DNA of 19,283 nucleotides. Source: Candidatus Cloacimonadota bacterium. GTDB lineage: Bacteria; Cloacimonadota; Cloacimonadia; Cloacimonadales; TCS61. How positions within the stretch are numbered: the stretch's first letter is position 1; the number at the start of each line of letters is the position of its first letter. The notes below the pieces were generated by a model. That model was not told the DNA's origin, did no database searches, and worked only from the letters and a program-made list of their open reading frames with translations. Below are positions 145 through 5,088 of the stretch, one piece after another. A program made the position numbers and the translations under genes. Location of the stretch: NCBI GenBank assembly GCA_030445745.1, contig JASUTE010000026.1:1-19283 (forward strand), read 5' to 3'.

Positions 145-167
145 AACTCATTAAATAACAATGAGTT
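145..167. repeat. Short inverted repeat at the left end of cassette 1
   Basis: AACTCATT (145-152) and AATGAGTT (160-167) are exact inverted copies separated by seven bases. The right arm ends in GAGTTATGA, whose GTTATGA (165-171) resembles an integron R' core (GTTRRRY). At about 23 bases the hairpin is too short for a normal attC site. It could be part of an attI or attC junction, or a simple hairpin in the leader of the next gene. Confidence 0.4.
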
Positions 168-214
168 ATGAAATATGAAAAAGACTTATACAATGAAATA
201 AATAAGGAGAAAAT

Positions 215-2410
215 ATGATTAAAAAATCTATTTTAAATGTTTTTGTTTTGTTGTTAAATTTATCAATTCTTTCTATTGTAAGTTGTACACTTAGTTCTAA
301 AGATAATATTTCAAATAAAGAAGACCTCTGGGGAAATCAAGTTAATCTAAATGAGGATAAATTGACTCTAATAGAACCTTTTTCACCTGCGAATTGTGGT
401 TATTGTCTTTTTGATGGAGAATTCATTAAAGCAAATTATTTTAAAAATAACCTAGAAAATGGTGGTGAAAATTTTTTACAATGTCTTTTTAATCCACAAT
501 TGGATATTTACACTTACAAAAAACATTATCGAAGTAAAACACCTGTTTTGACTTTCCCGCCCAAACTACACCAATTTCATCGAAATGGGTTCCCATTTTT
601 ATTTGCATTAAGAGATGGATATGTAATTAGTAGAGGTCCTTCGTCTCCTTATGAAATGACCTTTAATATTCTCAAAGAAAAATTTTGGCCAGATAAAAAT
701 GTAATAATTGAATTAACTTCACCAATACATATGGCAACAAGGTTTATAAATGAAAATAATAACTTAGCTACAACTTTTATTATTCCTGATAATGATTCAT
801 TATATTTCAAACGTTCTTTTCAAAATGCAAACAAATATAAAAATGGTATTGTAAAATACGAAAGTGATATTAATGAAAAGGATTTGAAACGAAATATTTT
901 TTATCGAGGAAGGTTTAATGACTATATTGTTAATCTATTAAAAGATAAAGAAATACCATTTGAGATAAACGAAAAATATTTGTACATTGGTGATTATGTA
1001 TTCGCTCAGGATAGCATTTCTGTTTCAATTTGTTTTCCAAATCCTTACAACAATGAAAAATATGTATTTTTAAGGTTATCAGGTGATTTAACTAAAGGTA
1101 AGAATATTATGCAAAATTGGGTTGATTTTACTATAAGCAAGGTAAACCGTAATAATAAATTGTCAGTAGTGATGAATGGTTTTTTTGAAAAAAATAACAA
1201 CAAATGGACTTATTCTGATTCGCTAACATTTATAAATTCTAACTCTAATTTAAAATGTACAAATGGTATTTGTAACATGCCAGTAAAGAAGACTTTTGAA
1301 AAGGACAAGATTGAATTTGAGAAAGTGAAAACAGAACAGACAAAATATGGTAAGCTAACCACACTCGGAAAAGAAAATTGTCGATTTCCCGAAATCACGA
1401 CAGATGAAAAAGATGTTGTATGGTGTTGTTGGGAAGAAAATGGTAATATTCTTTTATCTTCCAAGGATAAATCATTTATTGTTGAGGGTGATAAAAGTGA
1501 TAGTTTCAATCCTGTGATAACATATGATGGGAATAATATCTGGATTTTTTATCTCAACAATAAATCCGGATTTTATAGAGTTTATGCCAAAATTTTTGCT
1601 GGAAGTAGAGTTTCAGGCGAAATTTTAATTTCTGATAATTTAGTTAATGATTCTATAAACCTAAGAGTTGCATAAAATTGTGAAGGAAAAGTTGTCATCA
1701 GTTGGACTGAATGGCAAGCAAACTATAAATATCCCAAATATAGAATAATCGATAATCGAATTTTGGGTGAAATTAAAGATATTGCTATAAAAAAGCCGGA
1801 AATTGACTACACAAATGCCTGGTCAACATCACTGACATTTTCGAGAAATGGAGAGCTTTGGGGAGCGTGGAACCAACATTATCCTGCAATATTAGGTGTA
1901 TGTTCCGGTGATTTGATTACAGAAGCAAAATCGGTTACTAACTTAAAACCTAATGAAGAACAAGGTGGTTATCCCGATTGTTTAAATGATTCGACAGGTA
2001 AAAGATGGGTTTTCTGGGAATCTTTTGGATGGGATATATTAAACAGTAAACCACAACAAATCAAAGCTGCATTTTATGATGAGAAATCTGAAAAATGGAG
2101 TCTTCCATATATAATTTCTAATGATTCTGAAACAGCATTTAATCAAACCCCTTCAGCTTCTCTTGATGAAAATGGAAATATTAATGTTGTTTGGAGTCAT
2201 AGAAACTTAAAATCAAAGTTTTGGGAAATTTGTTTTTCAACATTAAAAAATAACAAATGGTCAGAACCAATTTCAATTTCAGAACCAAATGTAAATAGTC
2301 GGGCTCCAAAAATTATTTCAAATTCTAAAGGAAAATTAATTATAACCTGGCACAGTGGAATAGGTCAAGAAATGAAAATTAAATTATTAGAGTTAGAGAA
2401 TACTTTGTGA
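215..2410 (+). pseudogene. Large lipoprotein with thioredoxin-like CxxC and propeller-like repeats, split by an in-frame stop
   Basis: One reading frame of 731 codons is interrupted by a single TAA at 1673-1675. The downstream part (open from 1676) stays in the same frame with similar composition, so this is one gene broken by a point change. A GTG at 1763 could restart it. The start ATG has AAGGAG nine bases upstream. Residues 1-24 are a lipoprotein signal peptide (IVSC, acylated C24). A CGYC motif at residues 61-64 after 'TLIEPFSPAN' looks like a thioredoxin-type redox site. From about residue 375 across the stop to the end there are repeated 'P.I..D..G.I.V.W' strands, as in sialidase-like or BNR-type beta-propellers. 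I infer an exported, membrane-anchored protein and do not recognise a specific family. It sits upstream of attC1 as the cassette gene. Functional readthrough cannot be excluded, but degradation is likelier. Confidence 0.7.
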
Positions 2411-2592
2411 TAGACATTCACATAACAAGCACCTCGTGCGACAAGAAGTAGTATAATTAATTGTGGAGAGATGAGTTACAGTCTTATTGATTCCACCTGA
2501 TTTTTCACAATCAGTAGCCTACCGGAATGTGCGTCGAGAGTAATTTCGGGGCAACATGCTACGAGAAATTCAGGAAGCAAATGGAGTTTTGT

Positions 2593-4062
2593 ATGAATAC
2601 AAAATATGCGTCTGGAACTGTTAAAGATGAAAATTGGAATAATATCCAATGGAGTGAAGTAAAGGAAACAGTGAGATTATTTATCGTAAAGGCAAGGCAG
2701 AAGGGGTAAAACCGCAAGGTAAAATCCCTTCAATTTATTTTAACCAGATCTTTTTCGGCTAAACTTCCCCCAGCCAAGAGAGTTACGGAAAACAAAGGTA
2801 AACGAACATCCAGCGTCGACCATCAGCTTTGGACTACCGCTAACACAAAATGGCAAGCTGCTTTAAATTTCAATTCAAAAGATTACTGAGCATCACTGCT
2901 GAGAAGAGTGAGTATCCCGAAATCAAATGGAAAAACCAGACAATTGGGAATTCTAACGATGCGGGATAGAGCATTTCAAGCTCTCTATCTAATGGCATTA
3001 GAACCGTTGGCGGAAACAACAGCAGACAGAAATTCTTATGGATTTCGTTCCAAAAGGAGTTGTGCTGACGCAATTCGTCAATGTTGCATTGTGTTAGATA
3101 GAAAGAGTTCAGCTCAATGGATTTTAGAAGGTGACATTAAAGGTTGTTTTGACCATATTAGTCACAAATGCCTTTTGGATAATATTCCGATAGAGAAGAA
3201 ATTCCTAAAGCAATGGCTGGAATGTGGTTTCATCGATGGGAATAATTTATTTTGGACAAAATCCGGAACTCCGCAAGGCGGAATCATCTCTCTAACTCTG
3301 GCGAATATGGCGCTGGGCGGATTGGAGAGAGTAATTGATATAGCTGGAAGAATTATAAAATATACTAAAACTGGAGAGAAAAGCAACAACAAATATCAGG
3401 TTCACTTCGTGCGATATGCCGATGATTTCATTGTAACTTGCAACAACAACAAGTATATATTAGAAAATCAGATAAAACCGGCAATCGAAGCTTTCCTGAA
3501 TCAAAGGAGATTAGAACTTTCAGATGAGAAAACGAGAATTGTCCATATTAATGACGGCTTTGATTTTCTGGGTCAGAATGTTCGCAAATACAAAGGGAAA
3601 TGTCTAATCAAACCTTCTAAGAAAAGTTTTCAAGCGAATGTTTGGAAGCTTCTAACCTTGATAAAAAAGAATAAGGCGATCAGTTCAGGAAAACTGATAC
3701 AAATTCTCAATCCAATTATTCGAGGTTGGTGCAATTATCATCGAAAGATCAATTCATCGAGAGCTTTTGCAAAACTTGATTCCATTATTTTCAAGAGCAT
3801 CTGGAACTGGGCAAAAAGAGGACATCCAACAAAATCAAAGGGATGGATAAAAAAGAAATATTTTACAGTAATTGGAAACAGAAATTGGATTTTCTTTGGA
3901 AAAGTGAAAGAAAAAATTGTAACCCTGATTTCTGCGCAGTCTATTAAGATTGTGAGACATCTCAAGATACGAAACACAGCAAATCCATTTGACAAGTGTC
4001 GGAAAGATTACTTTATTGCCAGGAAAAGAAATGGAACAGATATGCGATGCCGTGTCATTTAA
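2593..4062 (+). pseudogene. Intron-encoded reverse transcriptase/maturase with two in-frame stops
   Basis: This is the group II intron-encoded protein, which in intact form acts in splicing and retrohoming. The ATG at 2593 follows GGAG (2583-2586) by six bases, and the family-like N-terminus 'MNTKYASGTVKDENWNNI' begins there. The same frame continues to 4062 but is broken by TAA at 2707-2709 and TGA at 2887-2889. Homology is visible on both sides of each: 'KVKSLQ' and 'AKRVTENKGKRT' between them, 'LRRVSIPKSNGK' after the second. The TGA falls where relatives have Lys or Arg, so CGA to TGA would explain it. RT motifs are intact, including 'GTPQGGIIS' and YADD (3415-3426), followed by domain X ('NPIIRGWCNYHR', 'IGNRNWIFFGKV'). 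The protein ends just after domain X, with no HNH endonuclease. Near 'ETVRLFIVKA' about three codons seem missing compared with relatives. A GTG at 2908 could start a shorter 384-residue product. Confidence 0.85.
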
Positions 4063-4087
4063 TGAAATTAATGATATTTGAAAGGCT

Positions 4088-4121
4088 TGAGCCGTTTGCG
4101 GAAAAAATCGCAAGTACGGTT
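4088..4121 (+). ncRNA. Group II intron domain V
   Basis: This 34-nt hairpin has outer arms GAGCCGT and ACGGTTC, inner arms TTGCG and CGCAA, and an A-rich loop. It carries the AGC catalytic triad at 4089-4091. The form closely matches the conserved domain V of bacterial group II introns. It begins only 25 nt after the stop codon of the intron protein. Confidence 0.9.
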
Positions 4122-4127
4122 CTTAGG

Positions 4128-4163
4128 AGAGGGAGGAGCCGTGAGGATTCTTCCTTATCCGAC
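4128..4163 (+). ncRNA. Group II intron domain VI and 3' splice site
   Basis: A GGAGGA arm pairs with TTCTTCC around a GTGA-type loop. It is followed by an unpaired A at 4157, seven nucleotides from the proposed 3' end, where the branch-point A of group II introns lies. The intron then ends in CCGAC. Confidence 0.7.
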
Positions 4164-4216
4164 AACTCGGACTGGCAATTCCGCTGCGCTCCATTGCCAG
4201 CCGGTTATGCGGAGCG

Positions 4217-4894
4217 TTCTGCGAATTCACGAAGAGGAAAATGCCCATAGAGTAGCTGGTTGAAACCGCCAGGAGTAAGATGCAAGTTCAATACTCAAGA
4301 CTCGAATCAATGGATGCAGATCTAGTTCGGCAAATCGCCGAAATTCATGAGAACGCGCCTTCCGAATGGCGTGATGATCACGAGGTCTCAGACGATCGTA
4401 TTCAGCGCCGAATCGAAGATCTAAAGACAAAGATAACTGACTCCGGATTCTATCTTCTCATGGCGCAAGCACCTTCCGGAGATCTCATAGGCTTCCATTG
4501 GCTGGAAATCGAAGAAGAGAACAAGAGAAGAATCGGACATATAGGCTCCCTATGGGTCGCCCAAAAATATAGAAGACAAGGAATTGGCAAGAAAATGAAG
4601 GAGAAAGCAGAGGTATGGGCAAAGAAGGCCGGAGCAGAGGAGCTCCGCACTGAGGTTTACTTTGCTAATAGCCGGATGATAGAATACAATAAGAAACTGG
4701 GATATAGGCCAGGACAAGTTATTATGACAAAGGACCTAAGATGATCTGGGCGTGCCGACCCTATACCAATCCTATCGTAGCAATCTACCATAGTTAAATA
4801 GAGTGCAGAACAAGCGGCTGTAACGGAATTGCTGTTAGCTTTTTACAAGTATATGGCCAAAATAAATATAACCACCAGCAGCACCAGCCGCTGG
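4217..4894 (+). mobile_element. Integron gene cassette 2, carrying a GNAT acetyltransferase
   Basis: The cassette begins TTCTGC (4217-4222), just after the G of the attC1 R' core. Its own attC-like site begins GCAGAAC (4805-4811), the exact reverse complement of GTTCTGC. That match is expected because both come from one circular cassette. The single gene lies between them in the standard orientation. Base composition is richer in G and C than the neighbouring chromosome, which suggests a foreign origin. Confidence 0.7.
4280..4744 (+). CDS. GNAT family N-acetyltransferase (cassette gene)
   Basis: The 154-residue protein has the acetyl-CoA binding motif A at about residues 90-106, with the pyrophosphate loop 'RRQGIG' (98-103). 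Motif B is near 128-142 ('NSRMIEYNKKLGYRP'). This is a typical full-length single-domain GNAT, which moves an acetyl group from acetyl-CoA to an amine. The substrate cannot be read from the sequence; small-molecule amines, antibiotics and protein N-termini are all possible. AGGAG at 4271-4275 lies four bases before the ATG. It is the only gene of cassette 2. GNAT proteins are among the commonest integron cassette products, but no known resistance allele is recognised here. The codons are less A/T-biased than those of the neighbours. Confidence 0.88.
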   Translation: MQVQYSRLESMDADLVRQIAEIHENAPSEWRDDHEVSDDRIQRRIEDLKTKITDSGFYLLMAQAPSGDLIGFHWLEIEEENKRRIGHIGSLWVAQKYRRQGIGKKMKEKAEVWAKKAGAEELRTEVYFANSRMIEYNKKLGYRPGQVIMTKDLR

Positions 4895-4956: not shown

Positions 4957-5088
4957 TTTTCTTTCGCCATTTGTCACTTTAATTTACATGAAATTACTAC
5001 TTTTCTTTCGCCATTTGTCACTTTAATTTACATGAAATTACTACTTTTCTTTCGCCATTTGTCACTTTAATTTACATGAAATTACTAC
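4957..5088. repeat. Three exact tandem copies of a 44-bp unit
   Basis: Copies at 4957-5000, 5001-5044 and 5045-5088 are identical over 44 bp and directly adjacent. Each unit starts TTTTCTTTCGCC and ends ATTACTAC. Each contains a small inverted repeat, AATTT-ACATG-AAATT. There are no spacers, so it is not a CRISPR array. The frame is not open in a useful way. It marks the edge between the cassette region and the rsmI operon. Confidence 0.95.

Follow-up and report, generated by a model that had tools for sequence, protein, structure and literature searches.

Gene cassettes and the interrupted attC

The window (the whole stretch of DNA analysed, 19,283 bases) is an entire contig (C37) of a genome (G000) of 2.04 Mb in 38 contigs, estimated to be 99.3% complete. 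Misbinning of this contig was considered and is disfavoured, since recR is single-copy in the genome and lies on it. A defective group II intron, co-oriented with the cassette genes, separates two integron cassettes (Table 1). The downstream cassette is genuine, because its two ends, GTTCTGC at 4216 and the R'' box GCAGAAC at 4805, are complementary to each other. The 5' boundary of the upstream cassette is weak: its GTTATG is complementary to its own R'' over 6 nt, and no long match was found. A stop at about 1675 breaks the gene of this cassette into two frames, 486 and 215 aa long, neither of which has a Pfam match. Just past the last cassette, a 44-nt unit is repeated three times in tandem without differences (4957-5088). 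No integron integrase in the genome scores above the curated cut-off, so in the present assembly the array is a CALIN (cassette cluster without integrase).

Table 1. Positions of the features of the interrupted attC and the adjoining cassettes in the window
Feature	Position	Strand	Details
Upstream cassette	165..2426	+	Possible 5' end GTTATG at 165; gene remnant 215-2410; R'' ACATAAC 2420-2426
5' exon (5' part of attC)	2420..2435	+	R'' ACATAAC 2420-2426, A, A, L'' GCACCTC (about 2429-2435)
Proposed IBS2 / IBS1	2423-2427 / 2430-2435	+	TAACA / CACCTC, in the 5' exon (R''/L'')
Group II intron, defective	2436..4163	+	Co-oriented with cassette genes; 5' GTGCG at 2436, 3' end CCGAC at 4163
Domain I deletion site	2551..2567	+	About 485 nt gone (L029 positions 117-601); about 15 nt of unrelated sequence at the joint
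RT/maturase pseudogene	2596..4062	+	RVT_1 and GIIM; no HNH endonuclease
Domains V and VI	4087..4163	+	Rfam; domain V starts GAGCC
3' exon (3' part of attC)	4164..4222	+	AACTCGG; stem CTGGCAAT/ATTGCCAG; L' (about 4209-4215); R' GTTCTGC 4216-4222
Downstream cassette	4217..4811	+	GNAT acetyltransferase gene 4280-4744; R'' GCAGAAC 4805-4811

The first-pass annotation had placed the intron inside an integron attC whose rejoined flanks form a 75-nt hairpin with a perfect stem, and this holds in each part: excision of 2436-4163 yields a canonical attC of exactly 75 nt, running from R'' to R' as listed, with the stem arms at 4172-4179 and 4193-4200. Its R'' ends in AAC, its R' starts with GTT, its length falls within 55-140 nt, and the bottom strand gives a hairpin with L''/L' and an extrahelical base. 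Folded as single-stranded DNA, the bottom strand (-15.4 kcal/mol, with 9 of 300 shuffles as low) is better than the top strand (-13.1 kcal/mol, 24 of 300), which is the usual asymmetry of attC sites. Fold energy by itself is only weakly better than chance, and not conclusive.

The comparative proof is stronger. When the 3' flank was used as a query against the phylum, uninterrupted homologues, i.e. empty sites, came up in G031:C197 and G107:C131, 93-95% identical to the flank over 55-56 nt. Both cross the junction gap-free: the window's TAACAAGCACCTC|AACTCGGACTGG corresponds to TAACAAGCGCATC-AACCCGGACTGG in the former and to TAACAACCGAATT-AACTCGGACTGG in the latter. A third similar uninterrupted site (G114:C81) has more differences. 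An alignment of six sites, one of them from a Geoalkalibacter plasmid, folds as an attC bottom-strand hairpin, with four pairs kept by changes on both sides; a search of plasmids for the empty site returned just a Geoalkalibacter attC with the same apex. The joined flanks are a real attC.

Class and condition of the intron

Rfam models for domains V-VI and for D1D4-7 (2496-2657) both hit above gathering thresholds, and together with the RVT_1/maturase domain they set the intron's extent from GTGCG to CCGAC, with the ends and the cassette-like orientation that were first proposed for it. By far the best solved relative of the reverse transcriptase (RT) is that of the group IIB intron T.el4h (Thermosynechococcus, PDB 6me0), at 515 bits against 133 for LtrA and 126 (GsI-IIC) and 119 for IIC enzymes. 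The match covers 480 of 562 residues; T.el4h runs some 80 residues further, a stretch that we take to be the position of its endonuclease domain and that is without counterpart in the window lineage. In a tree of 88 proteins, the RTs of the window and of two relatives (L003 and L029) form one clade with support of 100/100, far from the IIC proteins. Domain V of the window intron and its relatives has the triad AGC, as in IIA and IIB introns, and not the CGC of IIC (PMC7923331). Judged by the best match to T.el4h, the RT groups with the proteins of group IIB, chloroplast-like (CL) introns and not with those of IIC.

The closest RT kin are T.el4h and IIB introns of enterobacterial plasmids, the latter about 55% identical. 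Unlike the window lineage, the T.el4h-related loci whose 5' end could be located have no attC junction, and to our knowledge neither T.el4h itself nor the enterobacterial plasmid introns target attC. Likewise, introns of about 50% identity from Vibrio, Shewanella, Peptoniphilus and others have no attC motif wherever the 5' end was located; a lone relative at this distance (L060) has a bare AACA at that spot, in a different context.

The window copy is dead. Compared with the full-length relative L029, its domain I deletion takes away both the EBS1 loop and the EBS2 candidate discussed below, and its RT frame has two in-frame stops (TAA at 2707-2709 and TGA at 2887-2889).

A recurrent junction in attC sites

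Of 124 genomes from the phylum, nine carry relatives of the intron, and every one of these belongs to the window's own bacterial family. A further relative, the best full-length one (L029), lies on a 3.2 kb contig (JAGHAO010000150.1) from a MAG labelled Caldisericaceae, possibly through misbinning or transfer. Most copies are truncated or broken by contig ends: only three extend beyond EBS1, and a fourth stops at it. The 5' junction was readable in 15 cases, from the nine genomes and one metagenome contig.

These junctions, window included, are alike. AACA lies exactly at -12 to -9 in 14 of 15, with A at -12, -11 and -9 in all and C at -10 in 14; the exception (G028:C43) has AATA. T at -13 and C at -1 are each found in 14 of 15, and the L'' positions between are variable. 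The same base pattern was seen independently in a separate comparison. In all 15 cases the intron occupies the top strand, has the orientation of the cassettes and lies between L'' and the remaining arm. A scan of viral contigs for the attC-intron junction found none.

Five of the 15 junctions lie at cassette 3' ends, with a cassette 5' end 0.7-1.2 kb upstream that is complementary to R'' over 16, 11, 9, 9 and 8 nt, respectively. Complementarity of at least 9 nt occurs in 4 of 15 own contexts against 7 of 210 swapped ones (Fisher p 0.003); with this control, the complementarity shows that the 5' exon consists of R'' and L'' from real cassettes. Most 3' exons start with CAC, the arm segment whose partner is the GTGG before L'. 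This second attC type is found uninterrupted in G002:C164 and G009:C498, and the 5' end of the L029 contig is also an empty site; a regular-expression search for this type gave just two intact examples. Convincing attC on both sides of a single intron is seen only in the window and L029.

Two alternative explanations are disfavoured. An ordinary site-specific IIB intron might have landed by chance in an attC-like sequence, as would befit the unrelated sites of most related introns and a fold energy that, taken alone, is weakly unusual; the motif common to 14 of 15 junctions, the complementarity of cassette ends and the uninterrupted attC homologues make this negligibly probable. Alternatively, a single insertion into one attC could have spread along with cassettes by integron recombination, the junction being shared by descent. 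All copies are indeed related and confined to one family, yet every site has a 5' exon that differs in L'' and further upstream, the cassettes differ, empty homologous sites exist, and an integrase moves whole cassettes and cannot swap the exon around an intron, so we regard this as very improbable.

Some copies and sites deserve separate description: (i) In L141:1-172 (G004:C268) two copies stand head to tail without an intervening exon (CCGAC|GTGCG), which would fit insertion of a second copy at the 5' exon already used by the first. (ii) A 128-nt internal-deletion remnant (L136:2356-2483, G013:C92) keeps both of its ends at a TAACATTCGCTTC junction, 80 nt ahead of a tRNA-Val gene (2563-2639). 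(iii) The ORF-less copy L138 (G036:C145), complete at both ends, has in its 3' flank (L138:3510-3653) another attC-like hairpin with a TTCCGCTTCGCTCCA apex, and this hairpin is no match for the R''-L'' on the 5' side of the copy. (iv) Several attC sites of the window's bacterial family have R' ATTRRR and not GTTRRR (L137:6387-6460, L139:5066-5143 and L029:1-57), for example CACCTAAC with ATTAGGTG and CCCATAAC with ATTATGGG; this suggests an integron type whose crossover base is altered. (v) In L111:1-60 (G035:C175) an integron integrase gene is followed, directly after its stop codon, by an attC of the second type; integrase and cassettes are therefore co-oriented there.

Proposed pairing between intron and target

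In the consensus fold of the full-length relatives, a variable EBS1 candidate sits in the loop of the ID3 hairpin. The loop of L138 (GACACG) pairs at 6 of 6 positions with its own L'' (CGTGTC), as does that of L029 (GGTGCG) with CGTGCC, including two wobbles; the loop of L003 (GAGCTG) pairs 6 of 6 with CAGCTC, an L'' predicted from that copy's own L', GGCAGCTG. The permutation p for EBS1 and L'' is 0.027 for the two observed pairs and 0.0018 with the predicted third. The fourth copy, L131 (G003:C47), was rejected as a fitting case because its EBS1 is out of register (2.5 of 6, reaching 5 of 6 only when shifted by 3 nt); with all four taken in register, L131 included, p is 0.011. EBS1 thus fits its target in three of four copies.

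The EBS2 candidate is a conserved unpaired ATGTT upstream of the EBS1 loop, complementary to the AACA of R''. It is invariant among the copies and does not covary with R''. A CTGTT(G) loop considered for this role was dropped, as it is not kept in L003, L138 or L131. The pairings make R'' as IBS2 and L'' as IBS1 a well suggested, though not proven, mode of recognition.

Guidance by the folded attC, as in class C-attC introns, with the top strand used merely as the exposed one, is the other way in which these sites could be recognized. Every target is an attC, which folds, and a DNA stem-loop is what IIC-attC introns use (PMC7923331). In the window lineage, however, insertion takes place upstream of the hairpin and not downstream of it, and the two attC types that are hit differ in their central parts, yet AACA at -12 to -9 fixes the junction. 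The IIB-like RT, the AGC triad and the 6-bp pairing of EBS1 with L'' in three of four copies further weigh against hairpin guidance, which we consider unlikely.

The reading we prefer, with a probability of about 0.8, is that of a IIB (chloroplast-like) lineage that retrohomes into attC by exon pairing, with the window intron as one of its dead copies. The intron RNA would read the attC top strand through ordinary exon pairing: the conserved EBS2 would pair with AACA of R'', the EBS1 loop with six nucleotides of L'', and the RNA would reverse-splice precisely at the boundary of L'' and the remaining arm, 9 nt past the R'' AAC, presumably independent of an endonuclease. As the protein lacks an endonuclease, priming by replication would be expected. 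With R'' nearly invariant and L'' variable, the lineage would follow attC diversity by changes in EBS1. Being co-oriented with the cassettes, the intron could splice out of cassette transcripts, and IntI should be unable to recombine an attC that is split in this way.

A narrower claim also seems rather probable to us: that this is a dedicated IIB-attC lineage, which reads R''/L'' as IBS2/IBS1 without need of the hairpin and whose EBS1 tracks L'', so that its attC homing would be of independent origin.

Relation to other introns of integrons

Class C-attC introns, e.g. S.ma.I2, are likewise group II introns that home to attC at many loci. They target TTGT/T in the R'' bottom strand and are oriented against the cassettes (PMC7923331), with the hairpin upstream and with IIC RT and ribozyme; the window lineage has an IIB-like RT, uses the top strand with the hairpin downstream, and shows neither the TTGT/T site nor the CGC triad. 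The window insertion (2435/2436) is indeed deeper in the arm, 11 nt from the class C-attC point (2424/2425). A different targeting mode or lineage, raised by the first-pass annotation as a possibility, is supported by the top-strand junction at 14 of 15 sites and by the RT clade (100/100), with the qualification that the window copy is dead and that both a co-oriented IIB intron beside an attC and a top-strand IIC intron have been published.

The former is UHB.I2, a CL1/IIB1 intron in a Tanatar-5 cassette array on the soda-lake contig LFIK01005957, which is co-oriented and immediately follows an attC (PMC7923331). It resembles the window lineage in being chloroplast-like IIB, in its cassette orientation, in its adjacency to attC and in lacking an endonuclease domain. 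It differs in that it is a single case, lies after the attC and not inside it, and has the boundaries UUGCG..GU; its exons are without conservation relative to those of its homologues (PMC7923331). The latter is one IIC intron in the top strand of an attC in Enterobacter cloacae (Rodriguez-Martinez 2012, cited in PMC7923331); going by that description, it is co-oriented like the window lineage but is IIC and a single case. Truncated class E introns are also known from one Halorhodospira cassette cluster (PMC7923331). Our literature search, which mostly covered papers outside subscription journals, found no report of a IIB lineage that inserts repeatedly at one fixed attC position. Both IIB introns within integrons and a single top-strand insertion have been published before; the new elements are the recurrent IIB-attC lineage and the site it uses.

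Homing to attC has so far been tied to IIC introns and hairpin recognition. At least a dozen other cassette sites are occupied at this same point by relatives of the window intron from neighbouring species, and this points to a second, different way of exploiting integrons; if a IIB lineage does read R''/L'' as sequence, attC homing evolved on at least two occasions and in different ways. Since EBS1 and L'' can be compared copy by copy, the family offers a natural experiment in retargeting, and the intron may serve as a marker for attC sites locked by insertion. In this way, cassette arrays would offer many sites to a homing element that otherwise uses a single one.
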